A stretch of DNA of 64,000 nt from Hamadaea tsunoensis DSM 44101 (GTDB lineage: Bacteria; Actinomycetota; Actinomycetes; Mycobacteriales; Micromonosporaceae), in assembly GCF_000428945.1 (NCBI RefSeq), contig NZ_AUAX01000025.1:62001-126000 (forward strand), written 5' to 3'. Both the position numbers and the translations under genes were made by a program. Under the pieces are notes generated by a model. That model saw only the letters and a list, made by a program, of their open reading frames with translations, ran no database searches and was not told where the DNA came from. Every line of letters starts with the position of its first letter. Position 1 is the first letter of the stretch. Shown one piece after another: positions 24,228 to 62,868 of this stretch.

Positions 24228-24371
24228 TTTACCGTCATTACGGCAAGCCGACCCCGATTTCCTTGATCAAATACCGTCAATACGGCAGAGGGGCGCTCCC
24301 GTGCCGTCATAGGGGTATTTGATCAAGACAATCGGGGTCGCGCTGCCGTAATAGCGGTATCTGATCAAGGC
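24228..24371 (+). repeat. Nested palindrome of island 1 (left, left, loop, right, right arms)
   Basis: Inner hairpin 24263-24326: TTGATCAAATACC with perfect complement, plus ACGGCA/TGCCGT around a GAGGGGCGCTCCCG loop. Outer arms: TTACGGCA (24238-24245) with TGCCGTAA (24344-24351), and CGACCCCGAT with ATCGGGGTCG (24331-24340). The second right arm at 24344-24370 repeats the first. It fills the gap between two convergent genes. Confidence 0.85.
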
Positions 24372-24416
24372 GAATCGCGTCGACCGGTGTAGCGGAAAGC
24401 GGCGCTGACCGGCGCG

Positions 24417-27400
24417 CTAGACAATTTCCAGAAGTGCCTGTGCTGCGCGGATGCCGAGTGGCTGCCCGATCTCCTCGTGGTACGCGAGCGCCTCTGCCGC
24501 CAGCCGCCGCCCTTCCGCCACCTCGCCGAGCCGGAGCTTGACTGCTGCGAGGGCGGCCGCGGCGTACCCGTGGGTGACGCGGATGCCGAGTTCGCGGGCC
24601 AGGTCGAGAGCGGTCCGCGCGTGCGGCAGGGCGGCCGCCGGATCGTCCAGGCCGAGCAGGGCGTGGGTCAGGGCCACCCGGGCGTCGAGTTCGGGGTCCC
24701 GGCCGCCGGTCATGATGCACAGGTCGAGCGCCGTCTGGAGCAGGTCGACGGCTTGCCGGTGATCGCCGCGGGCACTGTGGACGATCGCGACGCGGTTGAG
24801 GACGTTGGCCTCCGCGTTGGGGTCGCCGGTTTCGCGTACCAGGTCGAGGGCTGCCGTCGCGGAGTGCAGGGCGGTGTCCAGGTCGCCGGATTCGCACTCG
24901 ACGTACGCGAGGTTGATCAGTGCCACCGCTTCGGCGAGTCTTCCGCCGGCGGCTCGCAGGACGGTCAGCGACTCCCGCAGGACGGTGGCGGCTTCGGTGA
25001 GGCGGCCGGCGTACCGGAGGGTGTCGCCGAGGTTGGCCAGGGCCAGCCCTTCGCTGTTGCGGGCACCCGCCTCCCGGTGCAGGCCGACGGCTTCGCGGAA
25101 GCAGCGTTCGGCTTCGCCGAGGTCGCCGACCGACAGGCAGACGAACGCCAGGGTGCCGAGTGCCTGGGCCTGGCCGGCACCGTTGCCGGTCAGCCGGTGC
25201 GCGTCGAGGGCGCGCCGGGCGTACCCGGCCGACTGCTCGTATTCGCCGGTCCACAAGTGGACGACGCCGAGGTTGACCAGGGCGGCCGCGTGGCCGTCGG
25301 CCCAGCCGATCGGTTCGGCGAGGTCGACCGCCCGGCGGCCGTACGCCTTCGCCTCGTCGTACCGGCCGAGGCCGCGGAAGTAGAAGGCGATGCTGAGTTC
25401 GGCCGCGGCGGCTTCGGCGGCGGCCAGGAAGGGGTCGGCGACGGCCGGGGCGGCCGACTGCGCGTACTCGGCGGTGGGCAACCAGTCGATCATGTCCCGG
25501 GCCAGGTGGAAGTAGGGCCGCAACCGGTCGGCCAGGGCGCAGCAGTGCTCCGGCAGATCGTGGTCGTACGCGTCGCGTACGCAGGCGACGAGGTTGGCGG
25601 CTTCCTCGTCGAGCCAGTCGGCGGGGACGTCGCCGGGCGGGACCGGCGCCGGGACGGGAGCGGGCAGCGGCAGCAGGGGCAGGTTCGGCATCATCCGGCG
25701 GGCGGCCGCGTCCGCGCGGACCAGGTACCACCCGATCAGCCGCTGCCGGGCCCCGGGCGTCTCCGGGTCGCGGAGCGAGTACGCGTACAGCCGCAGGAGG
25801 TCGTGCAGCGAGTAGCGGCCGTCGGCCCGCTCCTGGACGAGATGCGCGGCGGTCAGGCGGCGCAGCAGCGTCTCGGTGGTGTCGAGGGGCAGATCGGCGA
25901 GCGCGGCGGCCGCCGGCAGCGGGATGTCGGGCCCGGTGACCATGCCGAGCAGGCGGAACAGGCGGGCGGCCGGTGCGGTGAGGCGGGCGTAGGACTGGTC
26001 GAAGGCCGCGCGGACCGTGCTGTCCTGGTCGCCGTCGATCGCCAGGGCGGCGAGCCGGTCGCCGCCGCGCAGTTGCGAGACGTAGTCGGCGATCGGCTTG
26101 CCGGGCTGGTCGGCGAGGTTGGCCGCGGCGATGCGCAGGGCCAGAGGCAGGTACCCGCAGGCGGCGGCGAGGTCGGCGACGGCGTCGGGTTCGCCGCCCG
26201 CGCGGTCCCGGCCGAGGACGCGGGCGAGCAGGTCTTCGGCGTCGCGGGCGGACAGGACGCCGAGGTCGAGCCGGCGGGCGCCGTCGCGGGCGACCAGGCC
26301 GCTGAGCCGGTCGCGGCTGGTGATCAGGGCCAGGCTGCCGGCGCCGCCGGGCAGCAGCGGGCGTACCTGGTCGATGGTGGCCGCATTGTCCAGCAGGACC
26401 AGCACCCTGCGCTCGGCGAGCAGCGACCGGTAGAGGCCCGCGGCTTCGGCGGGATCGACGGGGATCCGGTCGCTCGGCTGGCCGAGCGCGCGCAGCACCT
26501 GCGCGAGCGCGTCGACCGGGCGCAGCGGGCGGCCGGTGGCGAAGCCGCGCAGGTCGACGTAGAGCTGGCCGTCGGGGTAGCGATGGGCGGCAGCGTGTCC
26601 CCAGTGGACGGCCAGCGCGGTCTTGCCGGCGCCGGGCGCGCCGGTGATCAGCGCGGACCCCGCGACGGCCGCGCTCTCGCCGGCGATCTCGTCCAGGCGC
26701 CGCAGGTCGGCCTCGCGCCCGGCGAAGTCCGGCACCGCGCGCGGCAGGAACCGCGGCACGGTCGCCATCGCCAGGCCCGGGTCGTTCGCCAGGATCCGCG
26801 CCTGCAGGTCGCGCAGTCCCGGCCCCGGCGCGACACCGAGCTCCGTGTCCAAGGTCTTCCACACCCGGCGGTACGCGGCGAGCGCGTCGCCCTGCCGTCC
26901 GGCGCGGTAGTACGCGAGCATCAGCAGTTCGGTCAGGTGCTCGCGGGTCGGGTGCTCCTCGACGAGCCGGGTCAGGTCGGTCAGCACCTTCTCGTGCCGG
27001 CCGCAGTCCAGGTCGGCCTGGGCGAGCAGCTCGATCGCGGTGAACCGCCGCTCCTCCAGGGCGGCGCCGACCCGGGCCCGCAGATAGTCCCCGGCGGCGT
27101 CGGCCAGGAGCGGGCCGCGCCACAGCGTGAGGGCCTCGGCCAGCACCGCCGCGCGTACGCCGGGATCGTCGGTGTCGCGAGCCCGCGCGACGGCGGCGGT
27201 GAAGCGGTGCGCGTCGACCTGGGCCGGGTCGATCTCGATGCGGTAGCCGTTGCCGCGGGTGGCGATCCGGATGCCGTGCGGCTTGAGGCGGGCCCGCAGC
27301 CGGGCGACGTAGGTGTGCACGGTGCGCTGCGCGCCGGCGGGCGGATCGTCGTCCCACAGCAGGGTCTGCAGCCGGTCGTTGGCCAGGATGCCGCCGTCGG

Positions 27401-27509
27401 CCGCCAGCAGGAGCAGGCCGAGCAGGCAGCGCTCGCCACGCCGCGGGCCGAGGTCGATCAGCCCCGCGTCATGCTGGATCTCGACCGGACCGAGGATCCG
27501 GAACAGCAA
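24417..27509 (-). CDS. SARP/AfsR-like transcriptional regulator (BTAD, NB-ARC, TPR)
   Basis: A 1030-aa protein with the same architecture as the 14149-17340 gene. Winged helix plus BTAD (about 1-250: LLFRILGPVEIQHDAGLIDL, later GDALAAYRRVWKTLDTELGV), NB-ARC ATPase with P-loop ITGAPGAGKTALAVHWG near residue 291 and LVLLDNAATIDQVRPLLPGG, and C-terminal TPR repeats (about 640-1030). A pathway-level activator; target unknown. ATG 27509. Its 3' end faces repeat island 1. A pseudo-receiver LuxR regulator is divergent upstream, so the two may be linked. Confidence 0.9.
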   Translation of the reverse strand: MLFRILGPVEIQHDAGLIDLGPRRGERCLLGLLLLAADGGILANDRLQTLLWDDDPPAGAQRTVHTYVARLRARLKPHGIRIATRGNGYRIEIDPAQVDAHRFTAAVARARDTDDPGVRAAVLAEALTLWRGPLLADAAGDYLRARVGAALEERRFTAIELLAQADLDCGRHEKVLTDLTRLVEEHPTREHLTELLMLAYYRAGRQGDALAAYRRVWKTLDTELGVAPGPGLRDLQARILANDPGLAMATVPRFLPRAVPDFAGREADLRRLDEIAGESAAVAGSALITGAPGAGKTALAVHWGHAAAHRYPDGQLYVDLRGFATGRPLRPVDALAQVLRALGQPSDRIPVDPAEAAGLYRSLLAERRVLVLLDNAATIDQVRPLLPGGAGSLALITSRDRLSGLVARDGARRLDLGVLSARDAEDLLARVLGRDRAGGEPDAVADLAAACGYLPLALRIAAANLADQPGKPIADYVSQLRGGDRLAALAIDGDQDSTVRAAFDQSYARLTAPAARLFRLLGMVTGPDIPLPAAAALADLPLDTTETLLRRLTAAHLVQERADGRYSLHDLLRLYAYSLRDPETPGARQRLIGWYLVRADAAARRMMPNLPLLPLPAPVPAPVPPGDVPADWLDEEAANLVACVRDAYDHDLPEHCCALADRLRPYFHLARDMIDWLPTAEYAQSAAPAVADPFLAAAEAAAAELSIAFYFRGLGRYDEAKAYGRRAVDLAEPIGWADGHAAALVNLGVVHLWTGEYEQSAGYARRALDAHRLTGNGAGQAQALGTLAFVCLSVGDLGEAERCFREAVGLHREAGARNSEGLALANLGDTLRYAGRLTEAATVLRESLTVLRAAGGRLAEAVALINLAYVECESGDLDTALHSATAALDLVRETGDPNAEANVLNRVAIVHSARGDHRQAVDLLQTALDLCIMTGGRDPELDARVALTHALLGLDDPAAALPHARTALDLARELGIRVTHGYAAAALAAVKLRLGEVAEGRRLAAEALAYHEEIGQPLGIRAAQALLEIV

Positions 27510-27727
27510 GACGGTACCTCGTCTCCGCCGGGGGGAGTCTGGTGTCCGAGTCTAGGGACGCGGGCGTCCGGCGACCACCCGGCGGCCGGGGGCCTTGACA
27601 CTAAAGTGACAGGCAACGTGTTGCGTCAATGTAGAAATTTGTCAATGTTATGCCATTTGGTGGCACTACCAGCCCCGATAATTCCTCCACTATGGATTGC
27701 TAGTTCACAATGGCTGTGTAGCCTGAG
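27510..27727. promoter_or_regulatory. AT-rich divergent promoter region
   Basis: 218 bases between divergent regulators. About 27595-27725 is clearly AT-richer than its surroundings and holds CACT-AA-AGTG (27599-27608) and two GTCAATGT direct repeats 16 bp apart (27625-27632, 27641-27648). This is likely a regulator-binding promoter region for one or both genes. Confidence 0.5.
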
Positions 27728-28339
27728 ATGGTGGCCGAACGGATTCTTGTCGTCTCCCATGTGCCGGCCTTCGGCGAGGGGATCGCGGCGTACCTGACCG
27801 GGAAAGGGTTCGACGTCGCCCAGCCGGTGGACCCGCTGCGGTGGCTGCGTGACACCACGGCCGACGCCGCGGTGGTGATCGTCGGCACCCCCGCGGCCGA
27901 GAAGATCATCCGTACGCTGAACGCCGAGCATCCCAAGCTGGCCATCGTCGGGCTGCTGTCCGCACCGGATCCGGTGGACTGCCGGTGGCTGCTCGACGCG
28001 GGCGCGCACGCCGCGATCCCGTGGTCGGCGTCGTCGGCCGAGATCCTGCAGGCGCTGCTGTCCGCGCTCGGCGGGTTCACGACCCTGCCGACGGAGGTGG
28101 CCCGGGCGATGGCGCGTACGGTGCCGGGCCGGGCCGCGATGGTGGAACTCGATCCGCAGGAGACGCTCTGGCTGCGGCAGCTCGCCCGCGGCGGCTCGGT
28201 CGTCGATCTCGCCCGGCGGGTCGGCTACTCGCAGCGGGAACTGCACCGGCGGCTCGCGCAGCTCTACCGCCGGATGGGCGTGGCCACCCGACCCGAGGCG
28301 ATCGCGCTGGCCGCCCAGTGGGGCGTCCTGCGCGACTAG
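27728..28339 (+). CDS. Orphan LuxR-type regulator with degenerate receiver domain
   Basis: A 203-aa protein. The N-terminal receiver-like fold (ILVVSHVPAFGEGIAAYLTG ... AAVVIVGTPAAEK) lacks the acidic pair and the phospho-acceptor Asp expected after the third strand, so phosphorylation is unlikely. The C-terminal HTH (LDPQETLWLRQLARGGSVVDL ... QRELHRRLAQLYRRMGVATR) is of LuxR type. A GTG three bases after the ATG is an alternative start. It is divergent from the SARP gene across an AT-rich region. Its stop overlaps the stop of the convergent EamA gene in a CTAG palindrome. Confidence 0.8.
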   Translation: MVAERILVVSHVPAFGEGIAAYLTGKGFDVAQPVDPLRWLRDTTADAAVVIVGTPAAEKIIRTLNAEHPKLAIVGLLSAPDPVDCRWLLDAGAHAAIPWSASSAEILQALLSALGGFTTLPTEVARAMARTVPGRAAMVELDPQETLWLRQLARGGSVVDLARRVGYSQRELHRRLAQLYRRMGVATRPEAIALAAQWGVLRD

Positions 28340-29289
28340 TCGCTGACCCGCGCGGCTTCGGCCTCGTCGCCGGCGGAGACGACCTCGGTGCGGACCTCGG
28401 TAGGAGCGTCGGTAGAGGCCTCGGCGGGGGCGTCGGTGTGGGCGGAGAACAGCACCAGCCCGGCCAGGATCAGCACGCCGCCCAGGGCCTGGCCCGCGTG
28501 CAGCGGCTCGCCGAGCCAGACGATCGCGGTAAGCAGCCCGAAGACGGGGATCAGATTGAGCGTGAAGCCGGCGAAGCTGGCCGGTACGCCGGTGATCGCG
28601 TAGTTGTAGAGCAGGAAGCTGGCGGCGAAGCCGAGCACGCCCGCGAGCGCCCCGGCGACCCAGAACCGGGCCGGGATCGAGGTCGAGACGCTCTCCGCGC
28701 CGGTGCCCCACTGCCAGGCGGCGACGGGGATGGTGAAGATCAGTCCGAAGAGGAACTGCCAGGCCGTCATCAGCGTGGGGTCGATGGAACCAGCCATCCG
28801 GCCGGCCAGCGTCACGTAGATCGCGGCCGACAGCGCGCCGCCCATGATGAGCAGGTCGCCCAGGCCCACCGCGGCGACCGGATGGGCGCCCTCGATGACG
28901 GTGACCCCGACGGCCGCGAGCACCACGCCGAGCACCGAGCGGACCCCGATCCGGTCGCGCAGCACGACCACCGCGAGGACCACCACGAACACGGCCTCCA
29001 GGCTGGACAGCAGGGAGGCGTTGCCGGCCGTCGTGCGGGTCAGCCCGACCGTCAGCCCCGCGTACGCGAGAGCCGGCTCGAACAGTCCCATGACGGCGAG
29101 CAGTCCCGGCCGGCCCGGGAAGCCGATCCGGCCGCGCAGGGCCAGCACGATCCAGATGAGCGCCGTACCCACCACGAGTTCGAACAGCAGCAGGGTCATC
29201 GGGGCGAAGCCGCCGAGCGCGTACTTGGTGATCCCCGTGGCGGTGCCCCAGCAGAGCGCGGCCGCGAACAGGGCGAGACGGTGGCGCAC
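28336..29289 (-). CDS. EamA/DMT-family transporter
   Basis: A 317-aa membrane protein with ten hydrophobic segments in two EamA repeats (about 1-130 and 145-280): ALCWGTATGITKYALGG, LYNYAITGVPASFAGF, GGVLILAGLVLF. The C-terminal 35 residues form an acidic Ala/Thr/Glu-rich cytoplasmic tail. Drug/metabolite transporters of this family export amino acids or small metabolites. It precedes the polyamine genes in the same direction but 64 bases away from the homospermidine synthase end, so a link is only possible. Confidence 0.87.
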   Translation of the reverse strand: MRHRLALFAAALCWGTATGITKYALGGFAPMTLLLFELVVGTALIWIVLALRGRIGFPGRPGLLAVMGLFEPALAYAGLTVGLTRTTAGNASLLSSLEAVFVVVLAVVVLRDRIGVRSVLGVVLAAVGVTVIEGAHPVAAVGLGDLLIMGGALSAAIYVTLAGRMAGSIDPTLMTAWQFLFGLIFTIPVAAWQWGTGAESVSTSIPARFWVAGALAGVLGFAASFLLYNYAITGVPASFAGFTLNLIPVFGLLTAIVWLGEPLHAGQALGGVLILAGLVLFSAHTDAPAEASTDAPTEVRTEVVSAGDEAEAARVSD

Positions 29290-29353
29290 GGAAGCTCCTT
29301 AGCGGACACGGGGCGCGGCGGCGGGCGACCGCGACCGCGCCCCCGACGAGGGA

Positions 29354-31983: not shown

Positions 31984-32026
31984 CGTCCTTGGGGTCTCCT
32001 CACTGCCGATGGAACCGGCCTTCAGC

Positions 32027-32068
32027 AGCCGGTCGGTAGGAGCCGGTCGGTGGCGGCCGGTCAGTACT
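32027..32068. repeat. Three ~14-bp tandem repeats at the end of the 370-aa gene
   Basis: AGCCGGTCGGTAGG, AGCCGGTCGGTGGC and a degenerate GGCCGGTCAGTACT follow one another. The third contains the stop codon of the 32061-33173 gene. Confidence 0.6.
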
Positions 32069-43000: not shown

Positions 43001-43876
43001 ATGGACGTACTGGACGAGACGACGACCGCCTTCGTCGAGCACCGCAACCTGCTCTTCACGGTCGCGTACGAACTGCTCGGCTCGGCGGCCGACGCGGAGG
43101 ACGTCCTGCAGGAGACCTGGCTGCGCTGGACGGGCGTGGCCCTCGACGAAGTCCGCGACAAGCGCGCGTACCTGGTCCGGATCACCACCCGGCAGGCCCT
43201 GGACCGGCTGCGTACGCTCAGCCGCCGGCGCGAGACCTACGTCGGACCGTGGCTGCCCGAGCCGTTGCTGACGACCCCGGACGTCGCCGAGGACGTCGAA
43301 CTGGCCGAGAGCGTGTCGATGGCGATGCTGCTGGTGCTGGAGACGCTGACCCCGACCGAGCGGGCGGTGTTCGTCCTGCGGGAGGTGTTCGACGTCGACT
43401 ACGACGAGATCGCCGCGGCGGTGGACAAGACGCCGGCCGCCGTACGCCAGATCGCCCACCGCGCCCGGGGGCACGTGGCCGCCCGCCGGCCGCGGACGGC
43501 GATCTCCGCCGCCGACACCCGCGACGCGCTGGACGCGTTCCAGCGCGCGGTCGAGACCGGTGATCTCCAGCGGCTGCTGGACATCCTGGCGCCGGACGTC
43601 GTGCTGCTGACCGACGGCGGCGGCGTGGTGTCGGCGGCCCTGGCTCCCGTCGTCGGCGCGGCGAAGGTGATCGACGTGCTGCGCCGCATCCCGGTCGCGG
43701 CCGGTCTGCTGACAGCGCAGGTCAACGGCTATCCCGCCCTGGTCGTGCGGCAGGACGACGGCATCCTGACCGTCCTCGCCCTGCGGCTGGACCACGGCCA
43801 GGTCACCGGCCTGTACGCCGTGCGCAACCCCGAGAAGCTGACCTTCATGGGCCGGGCGACGAGCCTGCGGCGGTGA
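43001..43876 (+). CDS. ECF41-family RNA polymerase sigma factor with SnoaL-like C-terminus
   Basis: A 291-aa sigma factor. Region 2 (about 10-75: FVEHRNLLFTVAYELLGSAADAEDVLQE) and region 4 (about 110-165: LTPTERAVFVLREVFDVDYDEIAAAV) are followed by a SnoaL-like domain (about 170-290). The family signature YVGPWLPEPL stands between regions 2 and 4, and NPEKL near the C-terminus. In ECF41 factors that tail both inhibits and assists the sigma, replacing an anti-sigma. Probably reads its own promoter. The usual partner (an oxidoreductase or carboxymuconolactone-decarboxylase-type gene) is not adjacent. Confidence 0.92.
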   Translation: MDVLDETTTAFVEHRNLLFTVAYELLGSAADAEDVLQETWLRWTGVALDEVRDKRAYLVRITTRQALDRLRTLSRRRETYVGPWLPEPLLTTPDVAEDVELAESVSMAMLLVLETLTPTERAVFVLREVFDVDYDEIAAAVDKTPAAVRQIAHRARGHVAARRPRTAISAADTRDALDAFQRAVETGDLQRLLDILAPDVVLLTDGGGVVSAALAPVVGAAKVIDVLRRIPVAAGLLTAQVNGYPALVVRQDDGILTVLALRLDHGQVTGLYAVRNPEKLTFMGRATSLRR

Positions 43877-43992
43877 CCGCTGTCGGATCTCTGCGGATGG
43901 CTTGTGACCTCGGGACTTCCCCGACGACCCTCGCGGAGGCACGATGTACCCGGCCGTAGGAGGCCGACCGCTGGAAGATCAGGGAGTTCGAG

Positions 43993-44187
43993 ATGAGTGA
44001 AAACCCGCTGTACGCCTTCGACACCGACGGCGACGGCCAGGCGGACGTGGTCGCGTACGACACGGACGGCGACGGGCGGGCCGACAAGATCCTCGTCGAC
44101 GAGAACAAGGACGGCGAGTTCGACGCGGCCATGTACGACGACGACAAGGACGGCCAGATCGACCGCCTGATCCGCTCGGCCGAGTAG
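43993..44187 (+). CDS. 64-aa acidic protein with calcium-binding DxDxDG repeats
   Basis: A tiny soluble protein made almost wholly of four repeats: DTDGDGQAD, DTDGDGRAD, DENKDGEFD and DDDKDGQID, each an EF-loop/thrombospondin-type-3-like calcium loop spaced about 13 residues apart. No signal peptide. ATG 43993 with AGGGAG seven bases upstream. Single gene between the ECF41 gene and the GntR gene, followed by a terminator. A calcium buffer or sensor role is inferred from the repeats. Confidence 0.82.
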   Translation: MSENPLYAFDTDGDGQADVVAYDTDGDGRADKILVDENKDGEFDAAMYDDDKDGQIDRLIRSAE

Positions 44188-44210
44188 TCCCGCCGGACGG
44201 TCTCGTCCCG

Positions 44211-44239
44211 GCGCGGGTGCCGCCCGCCGGTACCCGCGC
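44211..44239 (+). terminator. Terminator after the calcium-repeat gene
   Basis: Stem GCGCGGGT...ACCCGCGC with an inner CCG/CGG pairing, 23 bases after the stop. Confidence 0.55.
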
Positions 44240-44305
44240 CCGCTACGCGCCGACCAGGGGAGTACGCTCGCCAAGTCCTCAGACAAGTAGAGGAGTTGGC
44301 CACCG

Positions 44306-44977
44306 ATGACCACCACGGTACGCCGTCATCCGCTGGCGGCGCAGACGGCGGAAGTCCTGCTCGGCCGGATCAGAGCGGGCGAGTGGCCGCTCGGCGGACG
44401 GCTGCCCGGCGAGACGACCCTGGCGGCGCTGCTCGGCGTCGGCCGGTCGACCGTACGCGAGGCGATCCGCGAGCTGGCCGGCAAGGGCGTACTCGACTCG
44501 CGGCAGGGGTCCGGCGTCTACGTGACCGCCCTGGACGTCGCCGAGGACTGGGACGCCGTGCTGACCCGGGTCTCCGTCGTCGCTGTGCTGGAGGCGCGGA
44601 TCGCCGTCGAAGCCGAGGCCGCCGCGCTGGCCGCCGACCGGCGTACGCCCGCCGACGTGCGTGCGATCCGGCGCGCGCTCGCGTACCGGGGGGAGGAGCA
44701 CGCGTCGATCGAGGACCACGTGGACGCCGACATGGCCTTCCACCGGGCCGTCCTCGTCGCGGCCCACAACGACGTCCTGATCGAGCTGTTCGACACGTTC
44801 GTGCCGCGTATCCGCACCGCGATGGTGGCGATGCTGCGCGCCCGCCCGCTCGCCTCGCCCGCCGCCGACCACGACGCCCACATCGCGCTGGCCGACGCCA
44901 TCGCGGCGCGCGACGCCCGGGCCGCGGCCGCGGACAGTCGCACGCACCTGACCTCGCTGAAGGAGGCCCTGGCATGA
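44306..44977 (+). CDS. GntR-family regulator, FadR/FCD type
   Basis: A 223-aa repressor. N-terminal winged helix (about 8-75: GRLPGETTLAALLGVGRSTVREAIRELAGKGVLDSRQGSGVYV) and a C-terminal FCD helical bundle (about 90-215) with metal/ligand residues in HVDADMAFHRAV and HDAHIALADAI. ATG 44306. Its TGA overlaps the ATG of the ABC ATPase gene (ATGA), so it probably controls that gene; the effector is likely a carboxylate, unknown. Confidence 0.88.
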   Translation: MTTTVRRHPLAAQTAEVLLGRIRAGEWPLGGRLPGETTLAALLGVGRSTVREAIRELAGKGVLDSRQGSGVYVTALDVAEDWDAVLTRVSVVAVLEARIAVEAEAAALAADRRTPADVRAIRRALAYRGEEHASIEDHVDADMAFHRAVLVAAHNDVLIELFDTFVPRIRTAMVAMLRARPLASPAADHDAHIALADAIAARDARAAAADSRTHLTSLKEALA

Positions 44978-45777
44978 CCGCCGCCATCGAACTGCGCGAC
45001 GTCACCTTCCGCCGCGACGGCAAGGAGATCCTGCACGGGATCGACCTCAAGATCGGTTCCGGCGAGCACTGGGCGCTGCTCGGCCCGAACGGCGCGGGAA
45101 AGAGCACGATCCTCGGCTTCTGCGGCGCGGTCACCCACCCGAGCACCGGCACCGTCGACGTCCTCGGCCACCGCCTCGGCCACGTCGAACTGCAGGCCCT
45201 GCGTCGCACGATCGGCCACGTCAACCCGCGCCACCCGTTGCGCTACGCATTGACGGTACGCGAAGTCGTGTACACCGGTCTCACCGGCTCGATCGACCTG
45301 CCGGCCCGGTGGACGCCGACGGCCGAGCAACGGGACAAGGCCGACCACCTTCTGCGTACGCTGGGATTGGCGAAGAAGGCCGAGGACGTCTGGCCGGTGC
45401 TGTCGCAGGGAGAGCGGGGACGGACGCTCGTGGCGCGGGCACTGATCATCGAGCCGCGGCTGCTGTTGCTCGACGAGCCGACGACGGGCCTGGACGTGGC
45501 CGCGCGGGAGCAGTTGCTGGCGACCATCGACCTGCTCGACAGTACGCATCCCGGAGTGACGTCGGTGCTGGTCACGCACCATCTGGAGGAACTGCCCTCC
45601 ACCACGACGCACGCGGTGCTGATCGCGGACGGGCGGGTGGTCGCGGCCGGTCCGGCGGCGGCGACGGTCACGACGCGCAACGTGTCGGCGGCGTTCGACC
45701 ACCCGATCGAGGTGACGCGCCGTGACGGGCGCTGGTCTGCCCGAGCATCCTTCTCCCCGGAAAGCCCTGCCGTCTGA
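44974..45777 (+). CDS. Stand-alone ABC ATP-binding protein
   Basis: A 267-aa ATPase. Walker A GPNGAGKST (about 38-46), signature LSQGERGRTLVARAL, Walker B LLLLDEPTTGLD, switch His in VTHHLEE. No membrane component or binding protein gene adjoins, so it is an orphan, similar in layout to ModF-type or iron-type ATPases (the NPRHPLRYALTVREVV region is unusual). Coupled by ATGA to the GntR gene. The stop is followed by repeat island 2. Confidence 0.88.
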   Translation: MTAAIELRDVTFRRDGKEILHGIDLKIGSGEHWALLGPNGAGKSTILGFCGAVTHPSTGTVDVLGHRLGHVELQALRRTIGHVNPRHPLRYALTVREVVYTGLTGSIDLPARWTPTAEQRDKADHLLRTLGLAKKAEDVWPVLSQGERGRTLVARALIIEPRLLLLDEPTTGLDVAAREQLLATIDLLDSTHPGVTSVLVTHHLEELPSTTTHAVLIADGRVVAAGPAAATVTTRNVSAAFDHPIEVTRRDGRWSARASFSPESPAV

Positions 45778-45839
45778 GCCGGCCGCCGCATCCGTCACCG
45801 GCCACCGTCTCACCCCACCGCCCCGGCCTTCGCCCCGGC

Positions 45840-45862
45840 CTTTGCCGCGACTGTCCGACTTG
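45840..45862 (-). repeat. Repeat B, copy 1 (reverse)
   Basis: Complement of a degenerate CAAGTCGGACAGTCGCGGCAAAG; other copies at 46291, 46489, 62298 (reverse) and 62888. It opens island 2. Confidence 0.75.
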
Positions 45863-45894
45863 CGCGCCCGCCGTCGACCGACGGCTTGACGGCG

Positions 45895-46040
45895 TGATCG
45901 TTTACGGCTGAGGTGTGGAAACAGCCACCCGATGCATGATCGTTTACGGTTCTGGAGCGCGCTGACCGGGTTCTGCTGCACCTGGGGCGTCATCGATCAC
46001 GCAGTTCGGGCCGGATGGACACCCCAGCCGTGAACGATCA
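45895..46040. repeat. Long-range inverted pair, 22-bp arms
   Basis: TGATCGTTTACGGCTGAGGTGT (45895-45916, first 20 bases TGATCGTTTACGGCTGAGGT) pairs with 46019-46040 with two mismatches. A second left-type arm, TGATCGTTTACGG, stands inside near 45940. TGATCGTTTACC also begins the outer palindrome of island 1. Confidence 0.72.
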
Positions 46041-46121
46041 AGAAGACGGCGCCCCGGGTCCACCTATCGGAAGATCGTTCCCGCATCACGGGCTACGGCC
46101 ATCGGCGGGACGGCGTGGACG

Positions 46122-46265
46122 TGATCCACAGCGGCTGAGATGTAGAACCGGCCCCTCGCCCAAGATCCACAGCGGTCGGGATGCAGAGAATGGCCCCTGC
46201 CTACATCCCAGTCGCATTGGATCGAGGGAACGGACCCGAAACTACATCCCAGCCGCGAACGATCA
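46122..46265. repeat. Nested double palindrome of island 2
   Basis: Outer arms 46122-46145 (TGATCCACAGCGGCTGAGAT...) and 46242-46265. Inner arms 46164-46186 (GATCCACAGCGGTCGGGATG...) and 46201-46223 (CTACATCCCAGTCGCATTGG...). Order left, left, right, right, the same plan as in island 1 but with a different stem sequence. Confidence 0.78.
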
Positions 46266-46290
46266 CCGACCAGCCGATCCACCCGACCGC

Positions 46291-46313
46291 CATATCGGAC
46301 AGTCGCGACAAAG
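46291..46313 (+). repeat. Repeat B, copy 2
   Basis: CATATCGGACAGTCGCGACA followed by AAG; identical over 23 bases to copies at 46489 and 62888. Confidence 0.85.
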
Positions 46314-46360
46314 TCGGCGCGAGGAGCTTTGCGGCCCCGGATGATCGCGTCGAGATCCTC

Positions 46361-46463
46361 GATCATGTAGCGCCATATCGGCAAGAAAACGCTCTCCCGC
46401 CGATATGGCGCTACATGATCAACGCTCGACCGCCAGCATTGCCGGAATAGTGCTACATGATCA
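46361..46463 (+). repeat. Hairpin E1 with second right arm
   Basis: Left arm 46361-46381 (GATCATGTAGCGCCATATCG G), 18-base loop ending CGCTCTCCCG, right arm 46400-46420, a perfect 21-bp inverted repeat. After 20 bases a second, diverged right arm GCCGGAATAGTGCTACATGA (46441-46463) follows. Confidence 0.88.
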
Positions 46464-46488
46464 TGGGCATCGAGCGGCCCCCGGTGTC

Positions 46489-46511
46489 CATATCGGACAG
46501 TCGCGACAAAG
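46489..46511 (+). repeat. Repeat B, copy 3
   Basis: Identical 23-base copy of CATATCGGACAGTCGCGACA plus AAG, immediately before repeat A copy 2. Confidence 0.85.
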
Positions 46512-46524
46512 CCTAAGACGCGGG

Positions 46525-46612
46525 GGTGAGACGGTGACGGGGCCTCCTGGTCTCCCGCGCGAGGAGCGGAGGTGAGATCGACGAACCCGGGACAAAATGC
46601 CCTCAAAAGATC
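46525..46612 (+). repeat. Repeat A, copy 2 (shorter)
   Basis: Contains GGTCTCCCGCGCGAGGAGCG, GAGGTGAGATCGACGAACCC and GGGACA, as in the copies at 24018 and 62955. The AT-rich tail is not conserved here. Confidence 0.82.
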
Positions 46613-46706
46613 CGACCCCCGACGATCTTGCGCGAGTGTCCCAAATTTCGTCCGGAATGCCCGAAGGGCCCGAACATTCGCGCAAGATCGTCGGAAGGGG
46701 GCGGCG

Positions 46707-47741
46707 CTAGATGATGGAGAGGTGTACGTGGTTGGTGTGCTCGCCGGACGGTCCGGACTCGCCGCCGGACGGCGTGAAGTTCCGCCAGCCGAGGCCCGGT
46801 AGCCAGATCATGCGGTACCAGATGACGTACAAGATCCCCAGCCGGTCGGCGTTGTAGACGAAGAAGTACGCCAATCGCTGGCCGTACAGGCGGTATTCGC
46901 CCTTGGCCGGGCCCATGAAGCCGCTGGGATAGGTCGCGAAATCGCAGGCCCTGCCCAGCGGATGCTCACCCCAGCTCTGCTCACGCCAGCAGGCGTTGAA
47001 CCACGTGAAGCCGGCCTTCATCGCTTCCGTACGCGCATGCGCGAGGCGCGGGGTGATGTGACCGCCCGAGGTCGGGTCGTCGAGCGAGGCGCTCTGCTTC
47101 GGCCAGTTGCCGCTGGAGGTCTTGGGCGACGGCACGGCCGTCTTCACCGCCGGGTCGACGAAGTTGGGGTTGGCGCGGCTGCCGCCGGCCGACGAGAGGG
47201 CGAGCTCGGCCGCGTGGATGCGGGACTGGATCTCGGTGGTCTGCTGCGCCATGATCTTGACCTGCGCGTCGATCTCCGCCTTGTCCCGGGAGATCTCGTC
47301 CTCGGCCGAGGCCAGCGCCCCGATGGCGTCGTTGTCGCGAGTGTTGATCTCTTCGAGCATGGTGGCGCGTTCCAGGAACGCCGACGGCGTCGGGCTGGAC
47401 AGCAGGGCCGTGACGCTGGAGAAGCGGCCGTTCTCGTACGCCTGCGCGGCCATCTTCGAGACCTGGATGCGCAGCGGCAGCAGGTCCGACTCGATCTGGT
47501 CCAGCCGCTTGTTCAGCTCCTGCTGGCGGGCCTTGGCCGCATCGTAGGCCTGCTTGGCGGCGACGTAGCCGCGGGCGGCGGCCTCGACGTTCTGCAGCAG
47601 CTTCGGGTCGTCCTCGCCGCCGGTGGCGTACGCGCTGCCGGGCGCGGTGAACAGGGACGCGACGATCACCATGGCGAGTAGTGCCGCTACTCTCCGTACG
47701 AACCTGGCCGAGGTGCGCCGTCGCGGGGGTGTCGAGGTCAC
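46707..47741 (-). CDS. Secreted coiled-coil peptidoglycan-hydrolase-like protein
   Basis: About 344 aa. Twin-Arg-like signal (SARFVRRVAALLAMVIVASL), then a long coiled coil (about 45-190: VEAAARGYVAAKQAYDAAKA, LNKRLDQIESDLLPLRIQVS, IMAQQTTEIQSRIHAAELAL). A linker follows, then a C-terminal domain (about 235-344) with ARTEAMKAGFTW, GEHPLGRACDFATYPSGF and GEHTNHVHLSII. The latter resembles the ARB_07466/M15-like catalytic domain (HxxGxACDF ... HxHLS zinc residues). The coiled coil is like that in PcsB/RipA-type cell-division hydrolases. GTG 47741 with AAAGGA eight bases upstream. Confidence 0.82.
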   Translation of the reverse strand: MTSTPPRRRTSARFVRRVAALLAMVIVASLFTAPGSAYATGGEDDPKLLQNVEAAARGYVAAKQAYDAAKARQQELNKRLDQIESDLLPLRIQVSKMAAQAYENGRFSSVTALLSSPTPSAFLERATMLEEINTRDNDAIGALASAEDEISRDKAEIDAQVKIMAQQTTEIQSRIHAAELALSSAGGSRANPNFVDPAVKTAVPSPKTSSGNWPKQSASLDDPTSGGHITPRLAHARTEAMKAGFTWFNACWREQSWGEHPLGRACDFATYPSGFMGPAKGEYRLYGQRLAYFFVYNADRLGILYVIWYRMIWLPGLGWRNFTPSGGESGPSGEHTNHVHLSII

Positions 47742-48057
47742 AGGGCGGTCCTTTCCGGGTCGGCGCACAGCGTACCGGAGCGAGCTCGACGTCCCCAGGC
47801 GTAAGGAGTCGACCCCGTCACTACGGAGAGCGATGAACGCTCCGGAAGGGGGACGAGACGGGCACCGGTTCCGGCGAACCGGGCAGCGCCCGCGTGTCAC
47901 CGGAACGGGATTGGCACGCCATCGGATCGATACGCGCACCCGGCCGGCGTACAAGATCGTCGGGTGAAAGGTCGGGGCGCGGTGTCGATGGAGCGGGGGC
48001 GCGTGCGTCGTTAGGGTGGAAGGGCCGAACGGCGGCCCCGGGGAAAGGCCTTGTGAC
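47742..48057. other. 316-base divergent promoter region
   Basis: No gene seen. It holds the ECF42-type promoter (47983-48009) on the plus strand and a CCGGTTC-CGGC-GAACCGG hairpin (47865-47882). The hydrolase promoter should lie within about 47750-47900 on the minus strand. A c-di-AMP riboswitch was considered, but its conserved core was not found. Confidence 0.55.
47983..48009 (+). promoter_or_regulatory. ECF42-type promoter of the YCII/sigma operon
   Basis: TGTCGA (47983-47988), a 17-base spacer and CGTC (48006-48009), matching the pattern reported for ECF42 sigma factors; the YCII ATG is 48 bases downstream. Confidence 0.65.
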
Positions 48058-48411
48058 ATGGCGAAATACCTCATCCTGATCTACGGCGTCGAGCAGAAGT
48101 GGGACGCGATGACGGAGTCGGAGGTCGCCGACCTGTTCGCCGCCCACCGTGCCTTCTCCGCGGCCGCGGGCGACTCGCTCGTCCTCGGCGCCCAGCTGGA
48201 GAGCTCCTCGACCGCGACCAGCCTGCGCAGCGGGCCGGACCGCAGCGTGGTGCCCACGGACGGGCCGTTCCTGGAGACCAAGGAGGCCCTCGGCGGCTTC
48301 TACCTCGTCGAGGCGCCGGACCTGGACAAGGTCGTCGAGATGGCGAGCGGCCTCTACGAGGTGCACGCGGGGCACAGCGGCGTCGAGATCCGGCCGCTGG
48401 TCGAGCAGTGA
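48058..48411 (+). CDS. YCII/DGPF-domain protein, partner of ECF42 sigma
   Basis: A 117-aa small protein of the YCII-related (DGPFAETKE) family: MAKYLILIYGVEQKWDAMTE at the start and TDGPFLETKEALGGFYLVEA near residue 75, the hallmark. ECF42 sigma factors are routinely encoded with one or more DGPF proteins and drive their expression; the molecular role is unknown. ATG 48058. The stop overlaps the GTG of the sigma gene (GTGA). Confidence 0.9.
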   Translation: MAKYLILIYGVEQKWDAMTESEVADLFAAHRAFSAAAGDSLVLGAQLESSSTATSLRSGPDRSVVPTDGPFLETKEALGGFYLVEAPDLDKVVEMASGLYEVHAGHSGVEIRPLVEQ

Positions 48412-51340: not shown

Positions 51341-51423
51341 CCTTGATCCCGTTTGGATCAGGGAAATCACCCGAATCTTGGGCCAAGATTACGTGGCGAT
51401 CCCTGATCCAAACGGGATCAAGG
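51341..51423. repeat. Palindromic element F1 (83 bp), likely bidirectional terminator
   Basis: Left arm CCTTGATCCCGTTTGGATCAGGG (51341-51363; first 20 shown elsewhere as TTGATCCCGTTTGGATCAGG) and a perfect 23-bp complement at 51401-51423. An inner AATCTTGG/CCAAGATT stem completes one long hairpin. It sits between convergent genes and has copies at 59162-59244 and a half copy at 63150-63192. Confidence 0.85.
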
Positions 51424-55401: not shown

Positions 55402-55412
55402 CCCCCGAGGCT

Positions 55413-55443
55413 AGCCGTCCCCGGCGGGCGGCCGGGGACGGCT
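55413..55443 (-). terminator. Terminator after the CBM2/Cip1-like gene
   Basis: 12-bp perfect stem AGCCGTCCCCGG with complement at 55432-55443 and a seven-base loop, just beyond the stop at 55456 on the minus strand. Confidence 0.68.
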
Positions 55444-55455
55444 GTGACGAACGGG

Positions 55456-56718: not shown

Positions 56719-56880
56719 GGGGGCGGTCCTTTCGGCCGTGAGGGTATGCGTATGCCCGGACCGGTGTTGCTGGATCGTCCCCACGATCAGTCGCGCGTGG
56801 ACAGTGTAACGTCGAGACCTGTCAATCACCAAGATCCAGCCGTCCGGGTACGTGCGTTCGGCTGGACCAGGGGCGATCAT

Positions 56881-59154: not shown

Positions 59155-59161
59155 CCCTGTT

Positions 59162-59244
59162 CCATGATCCCGTTTGGATCAGGGAAATCACCCGAATCTT
59201 GGGCCATGATTCGGGTGGAAGACCTGATCCAAACGGGATCATGG
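59162..59244. repeat. Palindromic element F2 (83 bp), likely terminator
   Basis: Left arm ATGATCCCGTTTGGATCAGG (59164-59183) with perfect complement at 59223-59242; flanking bases extend this to 22 bp. Inner stem CACCCGAATC/GATTCGGGTG. Almost the same sequence as F1. Where F1 has CCTTGATCC...GGATCAAGG, F2 has CCATGATCC...GGATCATGG, changed in both arms. Confidence 0.85.
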
Positions 59245-59315
59245 CGCGGAGCCGGGCCACGAGCGTGATGGCGATCATGAGGCGGGGGCCGGCCGGGCCG
59301 GGTTACGGTCGGCGT

Positions 59316-60050
59316 ATGCGGATCGCGATCATCGGGGCGACGGGGCGGATCGGGAAGCTGGCCATGGCGGCCGTGACACGGGACGGGCACGAGGCGGTCG
59401 GGGTCAGCCGCTCGCTCGGCGTGGATCTGTCCACGGGGGACGGACTCGACGCGGCCCTCGACGGCGTGGACGCGGTGGTCGACGCGGTCAACGCCGGGGC
59501 GGCGGAGCCGGTCGCGTACTTCACGCGGACGACGGAGAACCTGCTGGCGGCCGAGCAGCGGGCCGGCGTACGCCACCACGTGCTGCTCTCGATCGTCAAC
59601 GTCGACCGGATCGCCGGCAATCCGCACTACGACGGCAAGGTGGCGCAGGAGAACCTGGTCGCGGCCGGGCCGGTCCCGTGGTCGATCGTCCGGGCGACCC
59701 AGTTCCACGACTTCCCGGAGATGATCGCCGAGCGCGCCCGGACCGGGGACACCGTCGCCCTGGCGCCGCTGCTGCTGCAGCCGGTCGCCCCGGAGGACGT
59801 CGCCGACACGCTGGTCTTCGTGGCGGGCGGCGCTCCCCGGGGCCGGCTGGACCTCGCCGGGCCCCGGACGGAGGACATGGTCGACATGCTCCGCCGCGCG
59901 TACGCCCACCGGGGCGAGACGATCGACATCGTGCCGACCTGGCGGGCGGGGTTCGGCCTGAGCATGTCCGGCGAGGCCCTGATCCCGGACGAGGGCGCGC
60001 TGCTCGCGGCTACGACGTTCGAGGACTGGCTGCGCCGCCCGAGGGGATGA
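59316..60050 (+). CDS. NAD(P)H-binding atypical SDR (NmrA/YwnB-like)
   Basis: A 244-aa Rossmann protein: RIAIIGATGRIGKLAMAAVT (residues 2-21), VDLSTGDGLDAALDGVDAVV, YDGKVAQENLVAAGPVPWSIVRATQF. No YxxxK pair, typical of NmrA-like or flavin-reductase-like SDRs. ATG 59316. Its last 41 bases overlap the convergent RidA gene. Role unknown. Confidence 0.84.
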   Translation: MRIAIIGATGRIGKLAMAAVTRDGHEAVGVSRSLGVDLSTGDGLDAALDGVDAVVDAVNAGAAEPVAYFTRTTENLLAAEQRAGVRHHVLLSIVNVDRIAGNPHYDGKVAQENLVAAGPVPWSIVRATQFHDFPEMIAERARTGDTVALAPLLLQPVAPEDVADTLVFVAGGAPRGRLDLAGPRTEDMVDMLRRAYAHRGETIDIVPTWRAGFGLSMSGEALIPDEGALLAATTFEDWLRRPRG

Positions 60051-60429
60051 CGGCGGTGAGCTCGACCTCCAGCACCGCCCCCGGCAGGAACAGCCGGCTC
60101 ACCTCGACCGTCGTGCTCGCGGGCGGGTCGGCGGGGAAGAAGCGGTCGCGTACCGACCCGTAGCCGCGCAGGTCGTCGAGGTTCGTCATGAACGTACGCA
60201 CGTGCGCGACGTCGGCGAACGTGGCGCCGTGGGCGGCCAGGATGCCGCCGAGGATCTCGAAGATCCGCTCCGACTGGGCCACGACGTCGCCCGGCGCGAC
60301 CACGGCCCCGTCGTCGTCGACGGCGACCTGGCCGGCCGTGATGAGCAGGCTGCCGCCGTCGATCCGGGCGACATGTGCGAACCGGTCGCCGAACGGTGCG
60401 GCGACGGGGTTGTCCTTCAGCAGCGGCAT
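60010..60429 (-). CDS. RidA/YjgF-family enamine/imine deaminase-like protein
   Basis: A 139-aa trimeric chorismate-mutase-like fold protein: LLITAGQVAVDDDGAVVAPG, GGILAAHGATFADVAHVRTF, with the substrate-binding Arg in AHVRTFMTN and the tail Glu in AVLEVELTAVIP. RidA proteins hydrolyse reactive imines/enamines. Four bases downstream of the 3-hydroxyisobutyrate-dehydrogenase-like gene, so it is in one operon with it. A metabolic link (clearing a reactive intermediate) is inferred. Confidence 0.88.
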   Translation of the reverse strand: MPLLKDNPVAAPFGDRFAHVARIDGGSLLITAGQVAVDDDGAVVAPGDVVAQSERIFEILGGILAAHGATFADVAHVRTFMTNLDDLRGYGSVRDRFFPADPPASTTVEVSRLFLPGAVLEVELTAVIPSGGAASPRTS

Positions 60430-60432
60430 CTT

Positions 60433-61221
60433 CTACTCCGTCACAAGGGTGGATACGTCCACGGACTGATCCGCCTCGGCGTCCAGCAGGCCGAGCGCGG
60501 CGAGGGTGACCGGCAGATCGCCGGCGCGGTCGATCGCGAGGCGGAGATCCTTCGCGGCCAGGCCGACCGAGAAGGCCGCGCCCGGCGACGGCGTGGCCCG
60601 GCCGACCGCCCCGGACAGCGGCCCCTTGCCCAGGGCCGCCAGCGCCGCTTCGCGCGGCACGCCCAGGGCCGCCGCCACCGCGAGCGCGTCGCGCAGCGCG
60701 GCCAGCGCCGTGACCAGGCCCGTGTTCACGACCAGCTTGGTCGCCGCGCCCGCGCCGACGTCGCCGCAGCGTACGACCGTGCCGAGCGTGTCCAGCACGG
60801 CCTGCGCGGGCGCCGGGTCACCGCCCACCAGGATCGTCAGCGTCCCCGCCGCCACCGCGCCGATGCTCCCCGCCACCGGCGCGTCGACGTACCTTCCCGC
60901 GGGCACGCGGCGGCTGAGCGCCACCGTCTCGTCCGGCCCGATGGTCGACATCTGCAGGATCACCGCGTCCGTACGCAGAGCCGGCCCGATCTCGTCCAGC
61001 ACGGTCTCGACGGCGGGCCCGTCGCTGAGCATCAGCAGGACGACGTCGGCGTCGCGTACGCCGTCCGGTGCGGTCGCGGCGATCCGGGCACCGTCGGCGG
61101 CGAGCGCGGCCGCCCGGGCCGCAGTGCGATTCCAGGCCGTGACGTCGTGCCCGGCCGACAGCAGCCGGCGGACCATCGCGGCGCCCATGGTTCCCGTGCC
61201 GAGCACGGCGATCTTGGTCAT
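60433..61221 (-). CDS. 3-hydroxyisobutyrate-dehydrogenase-like NAD(P)-dependent oxidoreductase
   Basis: A 262-aa beta-hydroxyacid dehydrogenase. Dinucleotide loop IAVLGTGTMGAAMVRRLL (4-21), MLSDGPAVETVL, substrate loop DAPVAGSIGAVAAGTLTILV, catalytic Lys in GAATKLVVNTGL (near 166), KDLRLAIDRAG. May reduce tartronate semialdehyde or succinic/hydroxy acids. ATG 61221. Divergent from the LysR gene, which probably regulates this operon. Confidence 0.88.
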   Translation of the reverse strand: MTKIAVLGTGTMGAAMVRRLLSAGHDVTAWNRTAARAAALAADGARIAATAPDGVRDADVVLLMLSDGPAVETVLDEIGPALRTDAVILQMSTIGPDETVALSRRVPAGRYVDAPVAGSIGAVAAGTLTILVGGDPAPAQAVLDTLGTVVRCGDVGAGAATKLVVNTGLVTALAALRDALAVAAALGVPREAALAALGKGPLSGAVGRATPSPGAAFSVGLAAKDLRLAIDRAGDLPVTLAALGLLDAEADQSVDVSTLVTE

Positions 61222-61313
61222 GCCACCAACCTAGGCCGCGACCGGGCATGCCACCAACGAATGAATCGCATGCGAGCCATGCGTGACCGGCATGTCCGGC
61301 TAACCTGTCGGGC

Positions 61314-62216
61314 GTGGAGACCCAACTGCTGGAAGTGTTCAGGACCGTCGCGCGGACGCGGTCGATCTCGGCGGCCGCCCGCGAACTCCGCTACACCCAG
61401 TCGGCCGTCTCCCGGCAGATCGCCGCTCTCGAGGCCGAGCTCGGTGGGCGGCTGTTCGACCGGCTCGCCCGCGGCGTCACCTTGACCGACGAGGGGACCG
61501 CCCTGCTCCCGTACGCCGACGCCGTCCTCGGCCGCCTCGACGCCGCCCGCCGGGACCTCGACGACCGGCGCCGCCTCGGCAGCGGCCGGTTACGCGTCGG
61601 CGCCTTCGCGACCGCGGTCGCCGCCCTCGTCCCGCGGGCGCTGGCGTCGTTCCGCGAGGCGTACCCGGGAGTGGCTCTGTCCTTGGTGGAGGGACTGACC
61701 CCGGCACTGCTGGACCGGCTCGCGGCGGGGGAGGCGGACCTCGCGGTGGTGAGTTCGTCGCCCGCGGACCTGCTGGAACCGGAGCGCTTCGAGCTGCACC
61801 ACCTGCTCGACGAGCGGCTGCTGCTGGCCGTGGCGCGCGGTCACCGCCTCGCGCGCCGCCGCACGGTACGCCTCGCGGAGTTCGCCGACGAGCCCTTCAT
61901 CGCCGGGTCGGCGACGGCCGAGAAGACGCTGCTGCGAGCCAGCCTGCCGGCCGGGTTCCGGCCCAGGATCGACATCATCGCGGCCGACTGGACCGGCAAA
62001 CTCGGGTGCGTGGCCGCGGGGCTGGGCGTGGCGCTCATCCCGGCCCTGGCCGTCCGGGGTACGCCGCCGGACATCGCCCTGCTCCGCCTGCACCCCGCCG
62101 ACGAGTCGGTACGCCGGGTCTTCGCGGCGACGGCCGCCGGGCGTACGCCGTCGCCGGCGGTCACGGAGTTCCTCACCCACCTCCACGCCGCCACCCGCAC
62201 CCTCTCCCTCTCCTGA
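61314..62216 (+). CDS. LysR-family regulator
   Basis: A 300-aa regulator. N-terminal HTH (about 1-60: FRTVARTRSISAAARELRYTQSAVSRQIAAL) and a periplasmic-binding-like effector domain (about 90-295: LRVGAFATAVAALVPRALAS, LAVVSSSPADLL). GTG 61314, 92 bases from the divergent dehydrogenase start. The spacer contains TCGCATGCGA and a second GCATGC, candidate LysR half-sites. The stop is followed by the short F4 hairpin. Confidence 0.92.
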   Translation: METQLLEVFRTVARTRSISAAARELRYTQSAVSRQIAALEAELGGRLFDRLARGVTLTDEGTALLPYADAVLGRLDAARRDLDDRRRLGSGRLRVGAFATAVAALVPRALASFREAYPGVALSLVEGLTPALLDRLAAGEADLAVVSSSPADLLEPERFELHHLLDERLLLAVARGHRLARRRTVRLAEFADEPFIAGSATAEKTLLRASLPAGFRPRIDIIAADWTGKLGCVAAGLGVALIPALAVRGTPPDIALLRLHPADESVRRVFAATAAGRTPSPAVTEFLTHLHAATRTLSLS

Positions 62217-62225
62217 CGGGCTTCC

Positions 62226-62262
62226 AAGATCCCGTGTGGATCAGCGATCCACACGATCATGG
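62226..62262. terminator. Hairpin F4 after lysR
   Basis: GTGTGGATC-AGC-GATCCACAC perfect stem (62234-62254) inside a longer AGATCCC...GATCATGG palindrome, ten bases after the LysR stop; a short relative of F1/F2. Confidence 0.65.
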
Positions 62263-62297
62263 CCGAGATTCGCCCCGCAGTCCTGTCTCGGTCCGGC

Positions 62298-62320
62298 CTT
62301 TGTCGCGACTGTCCGCTATG
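62298..62320 (-). repeat. Repeat B, copy 4 (reverse)
   Basis: Complement reads CATAGCGGACAGTCGCGACA plus AAG; one or two changes from copies 2, 3 and 5. It opens island 3 as copy 1 opens island 2. Confidence 0.82.
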
Positions 62321-62520
62321 CGCGCTGGGCGGGCCGCCGGCGACGGCCGTTCACTAACGGAAGACCGTTCCCTGCATCGCCGAGCAAGGGCGGCAGCGGG
62401 ACGGCTCGGACGTGACCCATGGCGGCCCCAGACGCATCTACCTCCCAGCCACAGATGATCACAGGCCCGGCGGCCCACTCGTGCGCTCTCGTCAGGCCGG
62501 AACCGGGCGTGCGCGTATCG

Positions 62521-62632
62521 GCCTTGATCATGTAACTCATATATGTCGAAATACGGCCGCTATGACATATATGAGTTACATGATCAAGGCTTGGCCATCC
62601 ACTTCGACATATATCAGCGACATGATCAAGGC
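62521..62632 (+). repeat. Hairpin E2 with second right arm
   Basis: Left arm 62521-62547 (begins GCCTTGATCATGTAACTCAT) and right arm 62564-62590 form a perfect 27-bp inverted repeat with a 16-base loop. A second right arm (CGACATATATCAGCGACATG..., 62605-62632) follows after 14 bases. It lies in an AT-richer patch. Confidence 0.9.
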
Positions 62633-62758
62633 CCGGTGGTCAGGGAAACGGCAAGGTCGGGGCAAAGCACGAGGCGCGTCGCACTGTCGGGAAGATCCCT
62701 CCCGCAACCTGGATGGCGACAGGCCCGCAGTGGATACCGGACATGATCACGGCCACCT

Positions 62759-62868
62759 CCTTGATCATGTATCGCCAGTTCGGTGAGATCGCGCTCTCCC
62801 GCCGAACTGGCGTCACATGATCAAGGCCAGGACGGTCCCGCCGCCGGAATAGCGTCACATGATCAAGC
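62759..62868 (+). repeat. Hairpin E3 with second right arm
   Basis: Left arm 62759-62783 (CCTTGATCATGTATCGCCAG TTCGG) and right arm 62802-62826, 23 of 25 paired, 18-base loop ending CGCTCTCCCG as in E1. A second right arm 62844-62868 begins CCGGAATAGCGTCACATGAT. Confidence 0.88.

Follow-up and report, generated by a model that had tools for sequence, protein, structure and literature searches.

A 64,000-nucleotide stretch of the Hamadaea tsunoensis DSM 44101 genome (contig NZ_AUAX01000025.1, positions 62,001–126,000; hereafter the window) carries intergenic hairpins that are parts of larger palindromic modules. A module consists of four units, each starting at GATC, two on the plus strand (U0 and U1) and two on the minus strand (U2 and U3), and measures about 145 bp in total. 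Our comparisons support conservation of this GATC-anchored four-unit architecture between subfamilies and between two genera, despite different sequences. We suggest, giving the idea an even chance, that the modules are arrays of predicted DNA-binding sites for one sequence-specific protein, which spread as non-coding elements. A sequence-only reading of the window had concluded that the two arms of each hairpin changed together; we found that the stem pattern on which it relied mainly reflects differences between subfamilies.

When the window sequence was read, the four hairpins (A, B, C and D) were present where they had been placed. Over 24 bases from the GATC, their arms agree at 18 (A), 22 (B), 22 (C) and 20 (D) positions. 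The layout said to be shared is indeed constant, as in all four the facing arms start 40 bp apart and a third arm lies 42 bp beyond the second. A single-arm motif matched 17 times in the window, with 13 of the matches inside the three islands, whereas 0.58 were expected in shuffles. Locus A retains four units of the module, and B, C and D three. Overlooked before were the fourth unit of locus A at 24223, which completes a four-unit palindrome, two further full modules in island B, and inverted 23-mers flanking islands B and C/D. Hairpin A is contained in a complete module of type A at 24223–24366 (units like GATCAAATACCGTCATTACGGC; GATC distances 42, 56 and 42). Island B has as its left border an inverted 23-mer, CATATCGGACAGTCGCGACAAAG, with 3 mismatches (45840–45862, minus strand), followed by the two full modules, one of type iv (45896–46039; units like GATCGTTTACGGCTGAGGTGT; spacing 42, 57, 41) and one of type v (46123–46264; units like GATCCACAGCGGCTGAGATGTAG; spacing 41, 56, 41), and by a three-unit module of type ii that contains hairpin B (46361–46462), with 23-mer border repeats on the plus strand at 46291–46313 and 46489–46511. 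Island C/D lies between a 23-mer with 1 mismatch on the left (62298–62320, minus strand) and another on the right (62889–62911, plus strand), and holds three-unit modules of type iii with hairpin C (62526–62627; units like GATCATGTAACTCATATATGTC) and of type ii with hairpin D (62763–62864). The four window stems represent three subfamilies.

The many copies that had been anticipated are dispersed through the genome of H. tsunoensis itself (G000; 9.48 Mb in 68 contigs, with the window inside contig C23). BLAST of locus A gave 75 matches, by hand count 40 distinct G000 places with locus A included, and the C/D region as query returned 121, counting both strands and matches to the 23-mer only. 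Contig C1 (596 kb), taken whole, had 22 full modules, whereas nine control spacings gave 0, 0, 0, 0, 0, 0, 1, 0 and 1; the 1.12 Mb of G000 examined held 108 four-GATC sets at module spacing. GATC-to-GATC distances were mostly 41–42, 56–57 and 41–42 bp, and at least six unit types follow this one plan, some modules having three units only. Elements of about 466 bp are two modules enclosed by inverted 23-mers. Several modules are nearly identical although they lie at different places.

The exact 64-bp hairpin frame occurred at 21 places in G000 and was absent from all 100 relatives scanned. Similarly, the 22-base core of the 23-mer, with at most 2 mismatches, had 237 copies in G000, and the 23-mer with at most 1 mismatch had no match in 100 relatives scanned. 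A stricter pattern run over 397 genomes of the order matched in G000 only, the second genus described below lying outside that draw. Island C/D had no match among plasmids, island B none among phages, and a three-unit pattern of the second genus none among viral contigs. Segments of 43001–48411 matched scattered places in the congeners G001–G003, and no syntenic gap (empty site) was identified. A wider scan of genome contigs, which may omit records close to G000, returned one match to the exact hairpin frame, in a Spirochaetes metagenome-assembled genome (L061), perhaps by chance. Several G000 contigs terminate in or near the 23-mer (for example C9:4–26, C24:1–22 and C12:297348–297370); assembly may thus have stopped at the repeat, in which case the counts given here could be too low.

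The same plan was found in a second genus of the bacterial family, g19. A spacing-only pattern, that is, four GATCs and their distances, was run over 300 genomes of this family and gave 82 matches in G000 and 23, 15, 15, 14 and 3 in five of six sampled g19 genomes, with none in the sixth. The remaining genomes gave 0–4 each, and the listed matches outside G000 and g19 looked by eye like coding sequence or tandem repeats. As a control, the reversed pattern matched once in the 300 genomes, in G115. The g19 units differ from those of G000 (for example GATCATGTGTGCCGGATCTGCAC) and enclose a conserved core, GACACGCCG; their arms agree at a mean of 10.63 of 18 positions, about 60%. Exact 42/57/42 spacing was seen in 59 of the 62 g19 module loci examined, by a finder that admitted only 41–43/56–58/41–43. 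In G128, a complete genome and the only g19 set also found without using spacing, a spacing-free unit pattern had 88 matches, of which 85 fell into 26 modules. Gapless alignment of the 23 of these 26 with exact 42/57/42 spacing, the set from which the G128 identities and the base counts below were taken, gave mean pairwise identities of 0.69–0.77 for the units and 0.75 for the core, compared with 0.48–0.51 for the spacers and 0.31 for the flanks. Spacers vary in sequence and hardly in length.

Placement was determined from genes called with an unbenchmarked custom caller. On these calls, all three window islands lie between convergent genes, as the sequence-only reading had stated. In a larger set of 875 kb (C1, the window and stretches picked for repeats), 49 of 51 G000 modules were intergenic, with 19 in convergent, 23 in tandem and 7 in divergent gaps and 2 genic. 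The densities per kb were 0.58 (convergent), 0.41 (tandem), 0.17 (divergent) and 0.003 (genic), so that enrichment in convergent gaps holds, whereas a rule does not, with 19 of 51 modules there. For g19, 39 of 62 modules were convergent, 22 tandem and 1 divergent.

Covariation between the arms was tested in five subfamilies (A, ii, iii, iv and vi, type v being left out), with copies typed by similarity thresholds, duplicates removed and the commonest spacing of each type taken (20 of 28 for type iii). Oriented U1–U2 identity over 20 positions, own versus cross-locus, was 14.32 versus 14.37 in type A (1291 of 2000 permutations), 14.94 versus 14.62 in type ii (202 of 2000), 14.65 versus 14.68 in type iii and 11.15 versus 11.80 in type iv; type vi showed a small excess, 13.55 versus 13.15 (18 of 2000). 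An apparent arm excess in type A, 14.42 versus 13.51 (25 of 2000), came from unoriented copies and was gone once they were oriented. A mutual-information scan placed no stem pair in the top 15 for any G000 type, and sister copies change mainly in one arm. The claim that the arms changed together is therefore not borne out: four of the five subfamilies show no excess above the cross-locus null, which is the outcome that its authors had themselves named as speaking against it. As an arm resembles its own partner about as closely as it does the arms of other loci in its subfamily, the earlier pattern is mainly one of subfamily difference; the matched arms of a few hairpins can imitate covariation if the copies stem from different subfamilies. 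Of the proposed selection for structure, the part that concerns DNA architecture stands, with spacing kept over subfamilies and two genera, whereas the part that concerns an RNA stem finds no support in covariation.

Within the unit, base 20 differs between species. It was C in 79 of 92 G128 units and G in 71 of 76 G140 and 26 of 28 G149 units, and was less uniform in G113 (C in 14 of 28) and G054 (G in 8 of 12). Hence, the units of unlinked modules largely agree within G128, G140 and G149, and such a common base is what a trans-acting reader protein would produce. Together, the rigid spacing, the variable spacers, the like behaviour of direct-repeat and inverted units and the common base fit phased binding sites for a protein better than an RNA stem. 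This suggests a model where each module would comprise four recognition sites of about 22 bp, two rightward and two leftward, around a short core. Neighbouring sites, at 42 bp or about four turns of the helix, would lie on the same DNA face, so that proteins bound there could touch and could fold or bridge the module, and the dyad symmetry of the sites would give rise to the hairpins. Copies would spread as non-coding elements resembling REPINs (doublets of repetitive extragenic palindromic, REP, sequences) or miniature inverted-repeat transposable elements (MITEs), and would settle in gene-end gaps, sparing promoters. We infer the protein, its contacts and the spread by mobilisation, and take the helical phasing from the distances. 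Homology over the whole 145 bp, spacers included, sharp ends and nearly identical G000 copies point to spread by copying, and in their behaviour the copies resemble a REPIN/MITE-type population.

Alternatively, though we consider this unlikely, the modules could be host chromosomal sites where a lineage-specific protein at gene ends organises the nucleoid or insulates convergent genes, each resident copy being selected. The g19 placement, with its 39 convergent modules, fits this, as do four module positions common to g19 species. Two of these (L188/L206 and L254/L266, G128/G140) have both flanking genes in common and L192/L207 the right gene only; at the fourth, common to G128, G149 and G113, the last 2 bp of one and the same gene fall within the module in each species, so that TGATC provides that gene's stop codon. 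Core orientation is consistent with the flanking genes in 6 of 6 comparisons, and GATC bases match at 16 of 16 in each of the six, a match partly ascertained because the search demanded GATCs. Base 20 at the common positions reads CGCC/GGGG, CACG/GGGG, CCCC/GGGG and CCCC/GGGG/TCGC, and if these are vertical copies it switched in place. However, the sequences do not demonstrate vertical descent: unit likeness (36–41 of 72) is at the level of other cross-species pairs (null means 37.6–41.5), spacer likeness is exceptional in one of six comparisons (L186/L217, 25 of 40, 0 of 181 null pairs), and core likeness also in one of six (14 of 17, reached by 4% of null pairs). In-place switching at these positions had looked strong and became less likely when the common-position pairs were set against all the other pairs between species, a control that took away most of what the sequences had offered for vertical descent. 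Because modules at common positions mostly show no greater likeness than other pairs, separate insertions into identical gaps may have occurred. Most module positions are not common to G128 and G140, three congeners of G000 lack the 23-mer and match the spacing pattern just once each, and the nearly identical copies at several places in G000 also speak against resident sites. On the chromosome, G128 modules are uneven around dnaA (Rayleigh p about 0.013), hinting at a nucleoid-occlusion-like distribution, which we rejected as the bias is absent in G140 (p 0.79). If it held, this explanation would describe a new chromosomal site system, in which each module offers four phased sites to a lineage-specific protein that evolves fast and bridges DNA at the ends of genes, and in which the modules are selected and switch in place when the protein changes; we regard such a system as doubtful. 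All unlinked sites of a genome would then follow the specificity of the protein.

A role in RNA, with transcribed hairpins stopping or protecting the transcripts of both convergent genes, is quite improbable in our view. G000 modules do fold better than shuffles, with a mean z from −9.73/−9.42 (A) to −2.85/−4.09 (vi) for 15 sampled per type, 25 sampled g19 modules fold moderately (−2.53/−2.78 versus −0.30/−0.67 for flanks), and modules are enriched at gene 3′ ends. Nonetheless, fold strength is alike on both strands, as in any palindrome, neither strand has a T-run after the stems in the pieces of window sequence read, and the spacers are variable in sequence and nearly constant in length. Rfam gave no match at E ≤1 in 5 loci (25666 bases), and a terminator scan found 0 per island, admitting loops of 3–8 only and hence blind to these hairpins. 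Hairpin-specific covariation was not found in the G000 or g19 tests. In g19, the top coupled column pair was an inner-arm pair, 62–82 (z 8.5), and column 62 also couples, less strongly (z 5.3–6.6), with the non-partner columns 20, 21, 27 and 138. Paired cells over both stems made up 0.762 own versus 0.721 shuffled, and U1–U2 identity was 10.63 own versus 9.91 cross-locus, of 18; direct repeats, which are not pairable, showed an equal own-locus excess (U0–U1, 11.36 versus 10.67; U2–U3, 11.05 versus 10.17). The same equality tells against arms kept alike by inverted copying within a locus, through template switching or conversion, which the sequence-only reading had also offered and which we hold to be very improbable. 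The nearly perfect arms of hairpins B and C would suit such copying, and so would the two-sided changes between type A sister copies, 14 where 4.6 were expected. But only 4 of these 14 preserve the match, non-pairing controls show a like two-sided excess (U0/U2, 11 versus 3.5; U1/U3, 13 versus 6.0), and, as four of the five subfamilies have arms no closer to their own partners than to arms of other loci, covariation lends the idea no support.

Several observations also weigh against spreading arrays of binding sites. A candidate binding protein was not found, and no informative gene family recurs beside the modules, where the recurrent neighbours look like ABC transporter genes. One source copy amplified per species could equally give the common base 20, of the 19 modules of G140 only 3 sit in a gap that is also occupied by one of the 26 in G128, and units at the common positions are, as noted, no more alike than the null. 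GATC-based module finding favours intact spacing, G128 excepted, and the narrow range admitted by the g19 finder acts likewise. As for mobility, PF01797 (Y1 transposase) had no match at E ≤0.001 in G000, G113, G128, G140 or G149; among ten genomes it matched in one, at L270 (G054:C6:310197–310409), a partial match with an internal stop. No autonomous copy was found, nor any inverted 23-mer pair 0.8–8 kb apart, in the 1.12 of 9.48 Mb examined. Pairs of 23-mers showed no clear target duplication (1 of 39 with at least 3 common flanking bases, null 0.86). For flank duplication at the 108 modules, counts were 9 versus 2.55 at offset 1, 6 versus 3.73 at offset 2 and 8 versus 5.97 at offset 7, and at or below the null at the other seven offsets.

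Two other families of GATC palindromes occur in the same genome. One, CCAAGATCCCGTTTGGATCAGGG...CCCTGATCCAAACGGGATCTTGG, has its GATCs 71 bp apart, with window copies at 51345–51419 and 59166–59240 and with 24 copies on C1 (596 kb) by a stricter count or 25 by a looser one. The other, CGACGATCTTGCGCGAATG...CATTCGCGCAAGATCGTCG, with GATCs 62 bp apart, lies on G000 contig C1 (for example L096, 2876–2941) in 20 to 29 copies by the count used, and is denser in convergent gaps too.

We recognised no description of such four-site arrays in searches of the open-licence PubMed Central literature, which does not imply absence from print. Among known repeats, MITEs share with the modules the short, non-coding, dispersed form and the inverted termini, islands B and C/D having inverted 23-mer borders; a possible difference from MITEs is that neither a clear target duplication nor, within the 1.12 Mb searched, a parent transposon was seen. 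A repeat of similar size is RU-1, which we take to be the enterobacterial repetitive intergenic consensus (ERIC). Enterobacterial intergenic repeat units (RU-1, 127 bp) are described as small mobile sequences in multiple intergenic regions, and thus resemble the modules in length and in their many intergenic sites (PMC2759123). The modules differ from RU-1/ERIC, by description only, in their rigid four-site plan and many unit types. Inverted units, fixed spacing, dispersal and intergenic position, all found here, also mark REPs and REPINs. REPINs are likewise dispersed inverted units with an important spacer length, species-specific sequences and several families per genome, and lie in intergenic regions beside convergent and co-directional genes (PMC3116915, PMC3733652). 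However, REPINs have two units and the modules, of about 145 bp, up to four. REPs carry a GTAG or CGTC tag, whereas the modules have a GATC anchor, whose presence in every subfamily and in g19 describes the collected set, as modules were gathered by GATC. GTAG REPs are linked to REP-associated tyrosine transposases (RAYTs), and CGTC REPs are described as having no dedicated transposase (PMC3733652); neither G000 nor four of the five g19 genomes with modules had a Y1 transposase match. REPIN hairpins are reported to show common compensatory changes (PMC3116915), whereas the modules lack hairpin-specific covariation. A high-copy family of rigidly spaced four-site modules, with no RAYT found in most carriers tested and with a unit base that unlinked copies have in common within a species and that changes from one species to another, offers a way to ask whether such repeats are selfish, host-read or both. 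Overall, the nearest known kind is the REPIN.

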